64,000 nt of DNA from a virus. Where the stretch lies: the IMG/VR virus record IMGVR_UViG_3300047089_000307, positions 94,652 to 158,651 of that record; one strand, given 5' to 3'. The notes under the pieces were generated by a model. The model had not been told where the DNA came from. It was given only the letters and a program-made list of their open reading frames with translations, and searched no databases. The position numbers and the translations under genes are program-made. Positions 18,090 through 31,874 of the stretch are shown here, piece after piece. How positions within the stretch are numbered: the first letter of the stretch is position 1; every line of letters starts with the position of its first letter.

Positions 18090-18508
18090 AGACCCCAAGA
18101 TACCGGTAACAGGGCCCGGCACCGAGTGAAACGGCGCCGGGCTCCCGTGCCTGCCTAGCCAGGCCCGTCCTAGCCGAGCCATTCCTGCCGGGGCGGGCCG
18201 CGCCCAGCCCTGCCTAGCCTTGCGACGCCTGCCGAGCCTTGCCCAGCCGCGCCACGCCAAGCCCTGCCTGCCCAGCCGAGCCTAGCCCAGCCGCACCACG
18301 CCTAGCCATGCCTGCCACGCCAGACCTTGCCCTGCCTAGCCATGCCTGCCGGACCTCGCCTCACCTAGCCAAGCCATGCCGCGCCTGCCCTGCCGTGCCG
18401 CGCCGGGGCCTGCCGAGCCTAGCCATGCCTGCCTAGCCGAGCCCTGCCGAGCCTAGCCATGCCATGCCTGCCAGTCCTGGCCTTGCGTCACCCCGCCTTG
18501 CCCCGCCG

Positions 18509-18552
18509 TGTCCATCCCTTTTACGCCGGATGCTGCTGCTCCCGTGCCTGCC
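18509..18552 (-). repeat. 42-bp unit, copy 1
   Basis: On the minus strand it reads GCAGCAGCATCCGGCGTAAA then AGGGATGGACACGGC, nearly the 3' end of the gene at 19736 including its stop region. Copies 1 and 2 are about 157 bases apart. Confidence 0.8.
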
Positions 18553-18665
18553 CGGCCACGCCAGACCTCGCCGCGCCTAACCTCACCTGCCCCGCCATGC
18601 CAGACCTTGCCGCGCCTAACCTCACCTGCCGCGCCAGACCTCGCCATGCCCTGCCGTGCCTAGCC

Positions 18666-18709
18666 GTGTCCATCCCTTTGCGCCGGATGCTGCTGCTCCC
18701 GTGCCTGCC
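18666..18709 (-). repeat. 42-bp unit, copy 2
   Basis: Same unit with CGCAAAGGG in place of CGTAAAGGG (minus-strand reading). Flanks are pentamer repeat. Confidence 0.8.
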
Positions 18710-19058
18710 GCGCCGCACCTGGCCATGGCTAACCTCACCGCGGCTGCCGAGCCGATCCCAGCCGTGCCTAGCCGTGCCGGCCCTGACCTCGCCTGCCCTG
18801 CCGCGCCGCGCCTGACCCAGCCAGGCCACGCCATGCCTGCCGCGCCGACGCGCGCCACCCCGTGCCAAGCCACGCCCTGCCTGCCGGTCCCCGCCTAGCC
18901 CCGCCTGGCCATGCCAGCCCGAGCCATGCCTGCCTTGCCAGACCTTGCCTCGCCGTGCCTTGCCGTGCCTGCCCGGCCTCGCCACATCGCGCCATGCCTC
19001 TCCTTGGCCAGCCTCGCCATGCCTGCCCCGCCTGGCCTCGCCGGACCCTGCCCTGCCG

Positions 19059-19101
19059 CGTCCATCCCTTTACGCCGGATGCTGCTGCTCCCGTCCCTGC
19101 C
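19059..19101 (-). repeat. 42-bp unit, copy 3
   Basis: Same unit; about 393 bases from copy 2, with one substitution near its end. Confidence 0.8.
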
Positions 19102-19283
19102 GGTCCCGGCCTAGCCTCACCGAGCCTGACCTGCCTGACCGCGCCATGACGCACCGAGCCTTACCGGTCCCTGCCTGCCATGCCACGCCACCCCGTGCCA
19201 AGCCCTACCTGCCCTGCCGCGCCGCGCCCTGCCGTGCCGTGCCTCGCCTGCCGCGCCTGGCCCTGCCGCACCGCACCATGCCA

Positions 19284-19326
19284 CGTCCATCCCTTTACGC
19301 CGGATGCTGCTGCTCCCGTGCCGGCC
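19284..19326 (-). repeat. 42-bp unit, copy 4
   Basis: Same unit; about 225 bases from copy 3. Confidence 0.8.
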
Positions 19327-19512
19327 AGACCTGCCGAGCCATGTCGTTCCGCTCCGCGCCATGCCCTGCCTGCCAAGCCACGCCCCACCCCGCCGAACCG
19401 AGCCATGCCTGCCAGGCCGTGCCGAGCCGCGCCTAGCCACGCCACGCCATGCCTGCCGGGCCATGACGCACCGCGCCTTGCCGCGCCACACCGTGCCTGC
19501 CCCGCCTTGCCA

Positions 19513-19555
19513 AGTCCATCCCTTTGCGCCGGATGCTGCTGCTCCCGTGCCTGCC
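19513..19555 (-). repeat. 42-bp unit, copy 5
   Basis: Same unit; about 229 bases from copy 4 and 211 from the related gene end at 19724-19755, which has CAGCCGG where the free copies have CGCCGG or ACGCCGG. Confidence 0.8.
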
Positions 19556-19735
19556 CCGCCTAGCCAAGCCTTGCCACGCCGCGCCTTGCCTGCCGGGCCG
19601 GACCCCGCCGGGCCGGACCATGCCGAGCCGCACCATGCCGTGCCTGCCGGACCGGACCACGCCACGCCGCACCATGCCGTGCCTCGCCTGCCGCACCAAG
19701 CCTCGCCGGACCCCGCCTTGCCATGTCCATCCCTT

Positions 19736-27169: not shown

Positions 27170-27187
27170 TGAGCGGAGCCACCACAT
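27170..27187 (+). CDS. Possible 5-codon coupling ORF before the replicase
   Basis: GTG-AGC-GGA-GCC-ACC-ACA-TGA follows a GGGGAGG ribosome site, and its stop overlaps the ATG of the replicase. It may couple or attenuate replicase translation, or be chance. Confidence 0.25.
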
Positions 27188-30100
27188 GAGCGCGACGGGC
27201 GGGGCAGGAGTGTTCTCCGGTGCCGCCGCGGACTACGTCCTGGCCGGCTGGCCGTGCGTGATCCCGGTCCCGCCGGACGCCAAGTTCCCCCCGCCGGCGG
27301 GATTCACCGGGGCCACCGGGACGGACACCACCACCGAGGACATCGTGGGCTGGGCCGGCAACGGGATGTCCGGGTTCTCCGTCGCGCTGCGGATGCCGGA
27401 CGGCGTCATCGGCATCGACGTGGACGACTACGTGAAGAACGGCACCGTCAAGGCCGGCGCCGCCACGCTGGCGCAGCTTGAGGCGGAGCTGGGCGCGCTG
27501 CCGCCGACCTGGTCCTCGACCGCGCGGGGCACGCCGGCCGGGCCCGGGCTGTCCCGCATCATGTTCTTCCGGGTGCCCGCCGGCCGCTACGCCACCCGGT
27601 GCGGCGCCGACATCGACGTCATCCAGCGCCATCACCGCTACGCCGTGGTCGCGCCGTCCCCGCACGCCGGCGCCGGCGCCCGCTACCGCTGGTACCGCCC
27701 GGACGGCACGCCCGCCATGGACGGGGAGGTACCGCGGCCGGGCGACTTCCCGCTGCTGCCGGACTCCTGGGCCAAGCGGCTGGCGGAAGGCGCCACCACT
27801 GCCGGGCCGCCGCCCGCTGACCCCGCCAGCGGGCGGGCGCTGCTGGACTGGCTGCTCGCAGACCAGCGGATGCCGTGCGCGGAAGCCGACGAGGCGGGGC
27901 GCGCGGCGGCGGCCGAGCTGGCAGGAGCCCCGGCCGGCTCGCGGCACGACGCGATGACCGGGCACGTCTACCACGTCATCGCCCTCGGCGCGGAGGGCCA
28001 CGCGGGGGCCGGGTCGGTGCTGGGCTGGCTGGAGCAGCGCTGGGAGGAGCTGACCGGGGCGGAGAACCGCGGCGGGGAGTTCGACCGGATGCTGTTCACC
28101 GCCGCGCGCAAGGCGGCGGGCCGGGCGATCCCCGACCCGTACGCCGACCCGTGCATGGACGCCCGGCCGCTGGGCTGGGACGCGCTGGCCGCCCCGCTGG
28201 ACGACGACGCCAGCGCCGACGACGCGCTGGAGGCGCCGGCCCAGTGGTCACCGAGGCACGCCTGGGGCGCGCACCTGTTCGCCACCTCCGCCCAGCTGGA
28301 CTCGGTGCTGGCCCGCGACATCCTCATGCGCACCTACCCCGGGCTGCGCTACGCCGCCGACGCCGGGACCTGGCTGCTGCGCGGCCCGCTGCGCTGGGAG
28401 GCCCGGCCGGGCGAGCAGGCCCGCTGGGCGGTGGAGGAGATGTTCTGGCTGCTGCCGCGCGGTGACTCAGGAGCCCCGGAGGGCACCGAGCCGCACGAGC
28501 AGGCCAAGCGGCGCGCCCGGTTCGGCACCAACGCCGGGGCCGGCGCCATCGCGGCCAAGATGACGGCCCAGGTGATGGGCGGGCACCACCCGTGCTCGCT
28601 GGACATGGCCGGCCTGGACCATGACGCCGAGATCCTGTGGGCCGGCGGCTACCCCTACGACCTGCGGGCCTGCGGGAGCGGCCCGGTGCAGGCCGCGCTG
28701 AGCCTGGAGACCGTGCACATGCACAGCGCCGGGTGCGCGCCGCGGCGGGGGGCGACGCCGCTGTGGGATGCCTTCCTGGCAGCCGTCTGGCCAGATCCGG
28801 AGGTGCGCGCGTGGGCCGTCCGGGTGCTGGCGGTCACGCTGACCGGGTACAGCGACAAGGCGCTGCCGATCCTGCTCGGGCCGACCAACCGGGGCAAGAC
28901 GCAGGTGATCGCGCTGCTGATGTCGGTGCTGGGCAGTTACGCGCACGCGGCCGACCCGCGGCTGCTGGCCCCGGCCGACCGCAGCCACGCCTCCATCGTG
29001 CACGCGCTGAAGGGGCGCCGCTGCTCGTTCATCGATGAGGCGCCCCGGTCCGGGCAGCAGGCCCAGGAGCGGCTCAAGCAGCTGACCGGCGGCGGGGAGC
29101 TGACCGGCAACCGGATGGCCGAGAACCCGATCACCTTCAAGCCCACGCACACGCTCATCCTGACGGCCAACCCCGGGTCGGAGCCGAAGCTCACGGACGG
29201 GGCCGTGCGCAGCCGGGTGCGGCTCATCCCGTGCGAGGGCGACCCCGAGGCGGTGCGCGCGGCCCGCGCGGCGATCGGCCCGCTGGCCGGCCCGGCCTGG
29301 CGCGCGGAGGCGCCGGCGGTGCTGGCGATGATGATGGCGCAGGCCGCCGCGTGGCTGGCGGACCCGGAGTCGGCCTCCACCGAGCGGGCGCCGCTGTGCG
29401 TGCGCGCGGCGGCGGACACCGCGGCAGCCGCGCAGGACCTGGCGTACGCGTGGCTGACCGAGGAGTGCGAGCACTGGGAGGCGGGCACGAAGGCGGGCCA
29501 GCTGTACCAGGAGTTCGTCGCCTGGTGCCGCCGGGTCAACGTCGCCCCGCATGACATCCCCAAGATGACGGCGTGGGGACTGCGCCTCAATGACCTGGGG
29601 TACCTGCCGCAGAAGCGCCGCGACGCCAATTACCGGCAGCTGCGCGTCCGCCTGGGCGGCTACGACGGCGGCCTCGCACCCTCCACGGTGCCCACGGCAG
29701 CACCCTCCGCGGTGCCCGCGGCAGCGCCCGTACCCTCCACACTGCCCTCCGCGGGACTCGCTGCGCCCGTACCCTCCACGGTGCCCACGGCCGGGAATCC
29801 GGCTGCAACTCCCGCGGTGCCCGCTGCACCCCCCGCGACGGTGGAGGGTACGGCTCCTGTGGAGGGTCTGGTGGAGGGTACGTGGAGGGTTGACGGCAAA
29901 CCCTCCACACTGCAAAACCCCAGGTCAAACCCTCCACAACTATCCACTGTGGAGGGTGTGGATACCCTATCGCCTGTTATACGCACGCACACACGCACAC
30001 ACACACACACACACGTAAGTGAATACCATCCAACCCTCCACACTCTCCACAACCCTCCCCCACCTGCGGAAACGCATTTTGAACCCTCCACAGACCCTCC

Positions 30101-31874
30101 GCAACCCTCCACGCCCCCCGCAGACCCTCCGCAGCTACCCTCCACGGCCACCGGGACCGTCGCCTTCGACCTGGAGGGCGGCAGCGCCGACGAGCTGTTC
30201 ACCTACCGGCCGCACGACGAGCGCGGGTACGTCCGGCTGGCCGGCAGCCTGACCGCGGGCGGGGCGCCGGTCATCACGGGCGCGCCCGCGCTGCTGGAGC
30301 GGCTGGCCGCGGCGGGCGAGATCACCGGGCACAACATCCTCGGCTTCGACCTGCCCGCGCTGGCCTGGCACTGCGGCGCGGACTTCGAGGCGCTGGCGGC
30401 GAAGGCGAAGGACACCGAGCTGATCGCCCGGCAGGCGTGGCCGCCGCGGTCGCGGGAGGGCGGGCACTCCGCGGACGGCTACGGCCTGGACGCGGTGGCG
30501 CAGCGCCTGGGCATCCCGGGCAAGACTGATGACCTGGCCCGGCTCAAGCGCAGGCACGGCGGCTACGACAAGATCCCGCTGGACGACCCGGAGTACCTGT
30601 CGTACCTGGAGGGCGACCTGGCGGCCACGGCGGCGGTGTCCGCGATGCTGGGCAACGACGCCTACACCGTGCGCGAGCACAAGCTGGCCACGCTGGCGGG
30701 CCGGATGACGCTCAACGGCTTCCTGGTCGACGTCCCCCTGCTGGAGCAGCGGATAGCGCAGGGCCAGGAGCGCAAGGCCGCGGCGCTGGGGCTGCTGCAT
30801 GACGGCTGGGGCCTGCCGCTGACGAGAACACTGGCCCGGGGCCGCGGCAAGGCCCGGCATGAGGTGACGGAGGAGCTCGACTCCCCCCTGAGCGCGGAAT
30901 CCGGCAGGGAGTGGCTGGCGGGCGTGCTGGAGGGCTACGGGGTGACGGTGCCGCGGACGCCGAAGCAGGGCAAGCCGGCGGTGGGCGACGAGCAGCTGAG
31001 GGCCATCGCCGCTGACCCGGCCTGCCCGCAGCCGCTGCGGCAGCTGATCGCGTGCGTGAAGATCGTGGTGGGCACGCGGACGGTGTACCAGACGGCCGCG
31101 GACTGCCTGGCCCCGGACGGGCGCGTGCACCCGGGCAACAGCTTCCGGCAGGCGTCCGGGCGCTGGTCGGTGACCAACCCGGGGCTGACCGTCTTCGGCA
31201 AGCACGGCGGGCGGCATGCCGAGCGCGACATCTTCGTCCCCGACCCCGGCCACGTGCTGCTGTGCTTCGACCTCAAGCAGGTGGACATGCGGGCGATGGC
31301 CGGGCACTGCGGCGACCCCGCCTACATGGCGCTGTTCGCCCCGGGCCGGGACGCGCACGCGGAGATCGCCGCGCAGGTGGGCATCAAGCGCCAGGACGCC
31401 AAGGCGATCGGGCACGGCTGGAACTACGGGCTGGGCGCGAACCGGATGATCCGCAACGGCCTCGATGAGGCGCTGGTGCGCAAGTTCATCGCCGGGATGA
31501 CCGAGCGGTTCCCGGTGCTGATCGCCTGGCGCGAGGAGATCCGCGCGGCGGGCAAGGCCGGCGACGTGCTGGACAACGGCTTCGGCCGCCGGATGGCGTG
31601 CGACCCGGAGCGCGCCTACACCGTGGCCCCGGCGCTGATGGGCCAGGGCGGGGCGCGGGACATCATGGGCGAGTGCCTGCTGCGGCTGGACCGCTCGCTG
31701 TGGCCGCTGCTACGGGTGATGGTCCACGATGAGATAGTCTGCTCGGTTCCTAAAGAGGATGCTGTTGACGTAGCGCGGCAAGTTACCAGGGCGATGACAT
31801 GGACCTGGCGGAATGTCCCTATACTTTGTGATCTCAGTGGCGGAAGCAGCTGGGGAGAGGCGTCTGCAAAGTGA
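27186..31874 (+). CDS. Four-domain replicase: PrimPol, SF3 helicase, 3'-5' exonuclease, family A DNA polymerase
   Basis: 1562 residues. Residues ~10-200: bifunctional primase-polymerase domain, with GIDVDDY as the catalytic DxD and QRHHRYAVVAPSPHAG as the His motif. Residues ~520-690: SF3/D5-type helicase with Walker A GPTNRGKTQ (~563), Walker B-like RRCSFIDEA (~614) and a motif C/sensor region LILTANPGSEPK. Residues ~830-990: Pro/Ser/Thr/Val linker and a His/Thr run. Residues ~992-1160: DnaQ-like exonuclease with FDLEGG (DxE), HNILGFDLPAL and YLEGD. Residues ~1160-1562: PolA fingers/palm with CFDLKQVDMRAMAGH (motif A), RQDAKAIGHGWNYGLG (motif B) and VHDEIV (motif C). One chain could prime, unwind, copy and proofread DNA. 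I see no frameshift; the domains are in one frame. Confidence 0.93.
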   Translation: MSATGGAGVFSGAAADYVLAGWPCVIPVPPDAKFPPPAGFTGATGTDTTTEDIVGWAGNGMSGFSVALRMPDGVIGIDVDDYVKNGTVKAGAATLAQLEAELGALPPTWSSTARGTPAGPGLSRIMFFRVPAGRYATRCGADIDVIQRHHRYAVVAPSPHAGAGARYRWYRPDGTPAMDGEVPRPGDFPLLPDSWAKRLAEGATTAGPPPADPASGRALLDWLLADQRMPCAEADEAGRAAAAELAGAPAGSRHDAMTGHVYHVIALGAEGHAGAGSVLGWLEQRWEELTGAENRGGEFDRMLFTAARKAAGRAIPDPYADPCMDARPLGWDALAAPLDDDASADDALEAPAQWSPRHAWGAHLFATSAQLDSVLARDILMRTYPGLRYAADAGTWLLRGPLRWEARPGEQARWAVEEMFWLLPRGDSGAPEGTEPHEQAKRRARFGTNAGAGAIAAKMTAQVMGGHHPCSLDMAGLDHDAEILWAGGYPYDLRACGSGPVQAALSLETVHMHSAGCAPRRGATPLWDAFLAAVWPDPEVRAWAVRVLAVTLTGYSDKALPILLGPTNRGKTQVIALLMSVLGSYAHAADPRLLAPADRSHASIVHALKGRRCSFIDEAPRSGQQAQERLKQLTGGGELTGNRMAENPITFKPTHTLILTANPGSEPKLTDGAVRSRVRLIPCEGDPEAVRAARAAIGPLAGPAWRAEAPAVLAMMMAQAAAWLADPESASTERAPLCVRAAADTAAAAQDLAYAWLTEECEHWEAGTKAGQLYQEFVAWCRRVNVAPHDIPKMTAWGLRLNDLGYLPQKRRDANYRQLRVRLGGYDGGLAPSTVPTAAPSAVPAAAPVPSTLPSAGLAAPVPSTVPTAGNPAATPAVPAAPPATVEGTAPVEGLVEGTWRVDGKPSTLQNPRSNPPQLSTVEGVDTLSPVIRTHTRTHTHTHVSEYHPTLHTLHNPPPPAETHFEPSTDPPQPSTPPADPPQLPSTATGTVAFDLEGGSADELFTYRPHDERGYVRLAGSLTAGGAPVITGAPALLERLAAAGEITGHNILGFDLPALAWHCGADFEALAAKAKDTELIARQAWPPRSREGGHSADGYGLDAVAQRLGIPGKTDDLARLKRRHGGYDKIPLDDPEYLSYLEGDLAATAAVSAMLGNDAYTVREHKLATLAGRMTLNGFLVDVPLLEQRIAQGQERKAAALGLLHDGWGLPLTRTLARGRGKARHEVTEELDSPLSAESGREWLAGVLEGYGVTVPRTPKQGKPAVGDEQLRAIAADPACPQPLRQLIACVKIVVGTRTVYQTAADCLAPDGRVHPGNSFRQASGRWSVTNPGLTVFGKHGGRHAERDIFVPDPGHVLLCFDLKQVDMRAMAGHCGDPAYMALFAPGRDAHAEIAAQVGIKRQDAKAIGHGWNYGLGANRMIRNGLDEALVRKFIAGMTERFPVLIAWREEIRAAGKAGDVLDNGFGRRMACDPERAYTVAPALMGQGGARDIMGECLLRLDRSLWPLLRVMVHDEIVCSVPKEDAVDVARQVTRAMTWTWRNVPILCDLSGGSSWGEASAK
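29683..30145. repeat. CCCTCCAC iteron-like repeats inside the replicase linker
   Basis: At least ten copies of CCCTCCAC or CCCTCCGC and five of the inverse GTGGAGGG lie in this stretch, including a face-to-face pair with ACTATCCACTGTGGAGGG around 29938-29956. They encode only a low-complexity linker, so selection at the DNA level is likely. Possible replication origin or initiator binding sites. Confidence 0.6.
29981..30014 (+). repeat. CA dinucleotide repeat within the replicase frame
   Basis: Alternating AC/GCAC over about 33 bases, encoding a Thr/His run between the helicase and exonuclease-polymerase halves. Slippage by one unit would shift the frame and detach the polymerase. Confidence 0.75.

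Follow-up and report, generated by a model that had tools for sequence, protein, structure and literature searches.

The locus raises two questions: whether the primase, helicase, exonuclease and polymerase that can be read from it are really encoded by a single phage gene, and what the DNA between the two halves of that gene holds besides a protein linker. The window, i.e. the whole stretch of 64,000 nucleotides that was analysed, corresponds to positions 94652-158651 of a 158,651-bp IMG/VR record. The replicase gene is a single open frame on the plus strand (27186-31874) with an ATG start, 1562 codons and no internal stops. A sequence-only reading had placed a PrimPol, an SF3 helicase, a 3'-5' exonuclease and a family A polymerase in this one 1562-residue frame, and domain matches, structural models and motifs all agreed with that assignment. 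The domains follow one another in the order given below; a linker of about 155 residues (830-985; 470 bp of code) separates the winged helix that ends the initiator half from the exonuclease-polymerase (exo-PolA) half.

27186-31874, plus strand: fused replicase gene, 1562 codons plus stop (open frame; PHROGs and Pfam domains)
27186-28115, plus strand: AEP (PrimPol) domain, residues 1-310, with motif I D78/D80 and motif III D144 and without the canonical motif-II His (AF2 model compared with pRN1 ORF904; alignment)
28233-29390, plus strand: SF3 helicase, about residues 350-735, with Walker A GPTNRGKT 565-572, Walker B FIDE 615-618, N662 and R677/R679 (DUF5906; AF2 model compared with AsfvPrimPol and D5; motif positions)
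29478-29660, plus strand: C-terminal winged helix of the initiator half, residues 765-825 (AF2 model; alignment)
30141-30680, plus strand: 3'-5' exonuclease (DEDDy), residues 986-1165, with D995/E997, D1055 and Y1140/D1144 (invariant alignment columns; motif positions)
30681-31871, plus strand: family A DNA polymerase, residues 1166-1562, with motif A DLKQVDMR 1362-1369, motif B 1402-1415 and motif C HDE 1514-1516 (PF00476, 99.6 bits; alignment)

Domain searches with the individual segments supported the four-domain reading. In PHROGs, phrog_1156 ('DNA primase') covered residues 7-816 (E=5e-99) and phrog_17 ('DNA polymerase') residues 971-1559 (E=1e-76); in Pfam, PF00476 (PolA) matched residues 1260-1558 over its cut-off (E=2e-28, 99.6 bits) and DUF5906, pointing to SF3, matched residues 563-663. 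The P4-family primase C-terminal profile TIGR01613 scored 96 bits, under its cut-off of 108.7. For the AF2 model of residues 1-347 (pLDDT 91.5) the best four PDB matches obtained with Foldseek were all pRN1 ORF904 prim-pol. The model of residues 351-840 (pLDDT 90.8) matched AsfvPrimPol and poxvirus D5/E5 and contained the winged helix, which in the numbering of that model comprises helices 420-433 and 444-453 and strands 459-460 and 465-471. When the profile of the AEP domain was compared with the PDB by sequence no AEP was found, the domain being matched by fold only; PF09250 matched close relatives at 1e-16 to 1e-21 and left the protein itself unmatched at E<=1.

That all catalytic motifs are readable, as had been claimed, proved correct for the helicase, exonuclease and polymerase, but not for the AEP domain, where the motif-II histidine is absent (S123-R124-I125). 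The SF3 part showed Walker A and B, motif C, an arginine finger and the AAA+ fold. Exo I (DxE), Exo II (NxxxFD) and Exo III (YxxxD) of the exonuclease all fell in columns conserved in the family, and activity is predicted; motifs A, B and C of a family A enzyme were present in the polymerase. Within the polymerase (window positions 31269-31430, residues 1362-1415), motif A (DLKQVDMR) has Asp in place of the steric-gate Glu of Pol I, which is common to most relatives in the exo-Pol alignment, and motif B has His at the position of Pol I Phe762. Alignment of 39 AEP sequences showed D78 and D80 of motif I to be invariant and D or E at residue 144 to be almost invariant, and the sxH histidine of motif II to be missing from the entire subfamily, which has S123-R/G-I125 instead. 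An invariant HRY (H150) lies close to this S-[RG]-I replacement (window positions 27546-27641, residues 121-152), and might or might not provide a substitute for the histidine. Judging from these columns the primase chemistry of the subfamily may differ from that of other PrimPols, and owing to the absence of the canonical histidine the primase activity of the domain is uncertain.

A sequencing error joining two genes had been named as a possible source of the long frame. Primase-helicase and PolA are separate adjacent genes in many phages, and one contig (L002) terminates within the linker. Against a merger by sequencing or assembly, however, a contig of a second metagenome carried a replicase sequence identical over residues 1-889, and the replicase frame was open through 130 linker codons in 30/30 full-length AEP-type relatives, the other two linker frames having 131 and 136 stops and being open in 1/30 and 0/30. 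No in-frame start codon was found ahead of the exonuclease between residues 926 and 1030, which makes separate translation of the polymerase unlikely, and the same fusion occurred in about 47 loci. With the identical independent contig, the conserved open linker frame and the recurring fusion, an artefact was rejected; its probability is practically nil.

An exonuclease-polymerase half in the same protein had also been thought uncommon, which the relatives contradicted. Two scans based on the AEP-SF3 half found 74 and 51 loci. Of 49 loci with a close SF3 half, some of which are near-duplicates, 47 carried a PolA in the same frame, mostly of a more distant lineage with about 22-31% identity to the PolA described here. 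A scan with the exo-Pol profile yielded 78 viral loci, 59 of them fused to a primase-helicase (mostly with an N-half of Toprim type), 13 separate and 6 cut by the contig end. On these two counts, 47/49 and 59/78, uniqueness of the fusion was rejected. Three main kinds of N-half were distinguished, namely type I, AEP-SF3 (this phage, L026, L092); type II, DUF3854/D5_N-SF3 (plasmid pS1D4-14.2); and type III, resembling phiAsp2 Pas55. The search for the same architecture in other genomes, which the sequence-only reading had proposed, found AEP-SF3-exo-PolA in dozens of contigs of IMG/VR, some of them prophages, and in Nocardioides sp. LHD-245; going by IMG numbers, several of the type I loci, L097, L098 and L104 among them, presumably lie in isolate genomes. 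Among 395 other genomes from the phylum of the host of L092 there were no matches at E<=1e-60. About 55 viral contigs, as well as phiAsp2 Pas55 and plasmid pS1D4-14.2, carried analogous fusions of Toprim type. In two type I loci, L100 (7671-12618) and L227, the frame was broken or truncated behind the winged helix, and these genes are perhaps decayed or mis-assembled. The suspicion that the fusion is widespread and described thus held in its first part, and no paper on the AEP-SF3-PolA form was found. In the open-licence literature searched, the AEP-SF3-PolA family, its iteron-array linker, the two-residue rule and the exchange of halves set out below were undescribed; priority of the in-gene address, the rule and the fusion family is not certain.

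The four-domain reading had overlooked what the linker code contains, an array of iterons with an alternating tract inside it:

29678-30145, both strands: iteron array of 14 copies of ACCCTCCAC, predicted replication origin and linker code (plus strand at 29678, 29732, 29771, 29900, 29929, 30033, 30083, 30104 and 30137; minus strand at 29841, 29859, 29871, 29882 and 29949)
29978-30017, no strand assigned: alternating pyrimidine-purine tract of 40 nt (TATACGCACGCACACACG...CACGTA) within the array, in the region where the gene has its lowest GC content (53-55%)

The 158,651-bp record contained 14 copies of ACCCTCCAC, and 14/14 fell within the 470 bp that encode the linker; both strands and all three frames are represented among them. 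Around the alternating tract the GC content dropped from 67-78% to 53-55%, and the single-stranded DNA of the linker folded more stably than every shuffle (z -4.95). The linker peptide is rich in PSTV/PSTL motifs, and the repeats could accordingly be no more than a low-complexity Pro/Ala/Thr/Val protein linker whose DNA repeats arise from codon bias. Yet in 500 trials no synonymous-codon shuffle of the open frame gave more than 3 copies, and shuffling of codons within the linker only gave at most 6, compared with the 14 observed. The spread of the copies over all frames and both strands likewise speaks against a protein linker as their source, as does the recurrence of the same DNA motif family, covarying with the winged helix, in most other type I linkers. 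Such a source was rejected by the codon-shuffle tests and is highly improbable.

The codon-shuffle test was applied to the linkers of 92 fused genes. All codon shuffles were exceeded by 28/33 linkers of type I (AEP), 3/23 of type II and 1/33 of type III, the last being L070. Most of the significant AEP-type arrays belonged to the motif family ACCCNNCA, and the form ACCC[G/T][T/C/G]CA was common to most type I arrays; the arrays of L104, L118, L123 and L125 had a somewhat different motif. A significant array was absent in 5/33 AEP-type linkers (L026/L120, L100, L122, L126), and the array is therefore not universal. The alternating tract was present in 20/33 AEP-type linkers compared with 0/23 and 2/33 of the Toprim-type linkers, and could favour Z-DNA or easy unwinding. 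Since these linkers are open in frame and carry the iterons at the same place, coding and iteron constraints act on the same DNA. In the series L097-L126, the alternating CA/CG tracts were seen to encode HTHTHTR-like peptides in most AEP-type linkers.

Comparison of the type I winged helices with their iterons drew attention to six residues:

29613-29630, plus strand: wing residues K810-N815, with residue 810 covarying with iteron base 6 and residue 815 with base 5 (covariation in type I)

Within type I, N at residue 815 went with T at iteron base 5 in 12/12 cases and K or W with G in 17/17, and H at residue 810 went with T at base 6 in 16/16 cases, K, R, D, S or P being accompanied mostly by C or G. 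When 474 alignment columns were scanned blind, both pairs ranked first (815/base 5, z 13.0; 810/base 6, z 6.1). The count excludes loci with a motif that could not be aligned to ACCCNNCA (L104, L118, L123, L214, L231) and those with too few copies, both being picked out by eye. Tree-independent pairs changed in the predicted direction in 5-7/7 cases for base 5 and 5-6/6 for base 6, and in the opposite direction in none; in L107 and L111, whose SF3 halves are near-identical, both wing residues and both iteron bases differ as the rule predicts. The two-residue rule had been written down before the loci of the second scan were read, and the ten testable later loci, a small validation set, showed fit or partial fit with 0 reversals (p=0.048 per rule). 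One of them, L183, combines a TT iteron with H and N in the wing, as predicted; L221, L125 and L217 fit the rules in part only, L217 having Ala at 815. This covariation strongly suggests that the replicase recognises the array in its own gene. If the rule is true, binding is predicted to prefer the phage's own ACCCTCCAC over ACCCGTCAC and ACCCTTCAC, and changing K810/N815 to H/K would move the preference from TC to GT. Origin specificity would then be predictable from sequence, and a rule of two residues and two bases is directly testable.

We consider it likely that this gene of a large tailed phage, whose host is probably an actinomycete, specifies a self-contained initiator-replicase, and that the origin is embedded in the gene itself as linker code. 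The C-terminal winged helix of the AEP-SF3 half would bind the iteron cluster (ACCCTCCAC in this phage), and the SF3 ring would then assemble at the iterons and melt the DNA, a step that the alternating CA/CG tract, with its lower GC content, would assist. The AEP domain would make primers, which the tethered exo-PolA half, working in the uncut chain, would extend and proofread; the iterons, placed in the gene as linker code between the halves, would be the replication origin. Initiator and origin, together with helicase, primase, proofreader and polymerase, would then all reside in a single gene, which would make it a candidate self-contained module for replication, and a very compact one. 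Genes for a tape measure, a head-tail adaptor and a major tail protein identify the record as a tailed phage; it also contains a Dda-like helicase gene, and an endolysin gene lies about 480 bp downstream of the replicase gene. No second PolA, PolIII alpha, DnaB or Toprim_3 was found in the 158,651-bp record, which is possibly incomplete, and this is consistent with the replicase protein as the main replicase of the phage. The linear record showed no end repeat and may be incomplete. Elsewhere in the window (18204-19712), degenerate GCC-rich repeats with units of 10-44 bp stand in tandem over about 1.5 kb, between or inside short frames.

Recognition of the array by the wing, as indicated by covariation, does not define its function, and the cumulative GC skew showed no turn at the array. 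The replicase might bind it as an operator or copy-number (incompatibility) site, repressing or titrating, with the true origin elsewhere. An operator would, however, hardly be expected so far inside the coding region, beyond the helicase domain, and the array is accompanied by low GC, a strong single-strand fold and the alternating tract. Known systems also favour an origin. Lambda O, unlike the protein described here, is neither helicase nor primase nor polymerase, and brings in host enzymes. The iterons of the lambda origin lie in the middle of gene O, a repeat cluster confined to the initiator gene as here (PMC7466680). The pRN1 ORF904 protein shares with the initiator half the AEP fold, the SF3 domain and the C-terminal winged helix in the same order, and immediately behind orf904 pRN1 has an element that it requires in order to replicate (PMC4234260); ORF904 differs in being without an exonuclease-polymerase half, and the element is a 100-nt stem-loop with no iterons, outside the gene. 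P4 alpha, likewise a multifunctional primase-SF3 helicase, is reported to bind origin repeats via its winged helix (PMC4234260), as is predicted here, but has a Toprim-type primase and is without a polymerase. An operator or copy-number site is, on this evidence, unlikely. With the array as origin, a lambda-type in-gene origin and a P4/pRN1-type primase-helicase initiator would be joined with a tethered family A polymerase.

The exposed linker might also be the place where one chain, once made, is cleaved to give separate enzymes, the fusion being a device for co-expression. PREX has a Toprim primase and a T7 gp4-like helicase, is cleaved into parts and is not known to have an origin in its gene; the protein described here is not of that type, its N-domain being an AEP and the record having no Toprim_3 match. 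The two are alike in that a single chain of Plasmodium PREX likewise unites a primase, a helicase and a DNA polymerase, and its being cut into its enzymes favours cleavage here (PMC9631997), as does the coexistence of fused and separate forms in the polymerase tree. Deletion of a domain in GP55 of phage 1706 affects the other domains, by contrast, which speaks against cleavage (PMC12205980). GP55 unites helicase, AEP primase, 3'-5' exonuclease and polymerase, four activities shown biochemically in one chain; it differs from the present protein in its family B polymerase (PolB), by which the two are of different types, in having the helicase first, in another primase accessory domain and in that no in-gene origin is reported (PMC12205980). 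The AICE Fdat2245 carries Prim-Pol and PolA on one element as separate proteins (PMC3218068). Cleavage is a rather doubtful alternative; it concerns the protein alone and is compatible with an in-gene origin.

How an origin would have come to lie in a gene is suggested by unfused relatives. Arrays were found near the 3' end of unfused AEP genes in L020 (+40), L130 (+71), L166 (+12), L138 (+38), L168 (+198), L132 (-203) and L137 (-145); in many other unfused AEP relatives no array was seen. Because these arrays are found at the 3' end of the primase-helicase gene or a short way behind it, the simplest history would be that a flanking origin was turned into linker code when a downstream polymerase gene was joined on. 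In L020 (3493-3698), eight copies of AGGGGCCCA begin 40 bp behind the unfused AEP gene and ahead of a separate PolA gene, which is presumed to be the layout before fusion.

The halves have also changed partners. In the exo-Pol tree, type I N-halves occupied three separate places, forced by supported branches, and fused and separate forms both occurred. L099 and L101 had 57-58% identity over the N-half compared with 23-27% in Pol; the most similar SF3 half was that of L183 (62%). phiAsp2 Pas55 (phrog_17) and pS1D4-14.2 WP_181360814 carry the same exo-PolA family behind a primase-helicase, but their primase is DUF3854/Toprim-like, their helicases are of other types, their N-domains are non-homologous to this AEP and the linkers of these fusion types are as a rule without iterons. 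The halves are swapped as units, the primase-helicase together with its predicted origin on the one hand and the polymerase on the other, and the breakpoints fall in the linker. It seems reasonably probable that these genes form a family of phage replicases whose linker code is their own origin, read by the winged helix via two residues (815 for base 5 and 810 for base 6 of ACCCNNCA), and which evolve by swapping halves together with the origin at the linker.

The closest Pol was found in L070 of the sister phage G001, with an exo-Pol part 72% identical to that of the present phage (G000). The N-half of L070 is of type III (Toprim) and has no detectable similarity to the AEP-SF3 half described here, and its linker contains 6/6 copies of AGGGGGAAC, ACCCTCCAC being absent. 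The two genomes are colinear over dozens of genes, including those flanking the replicase. Given a Pol that is 72% identical, an unrelated N-half and colinear genomes, one lineage has had its entire N-half exchanged at this site, the breakpoint falling within the linker; the pair is a natural case in which a replicase half and its linker repeats were swapped in an otherwise colinear phage genome. The L070 locus also contains 22 copies of GGCAATGCC, repeats of which lie upstream of the replicase gene (1329-2194), apart from the linker array.
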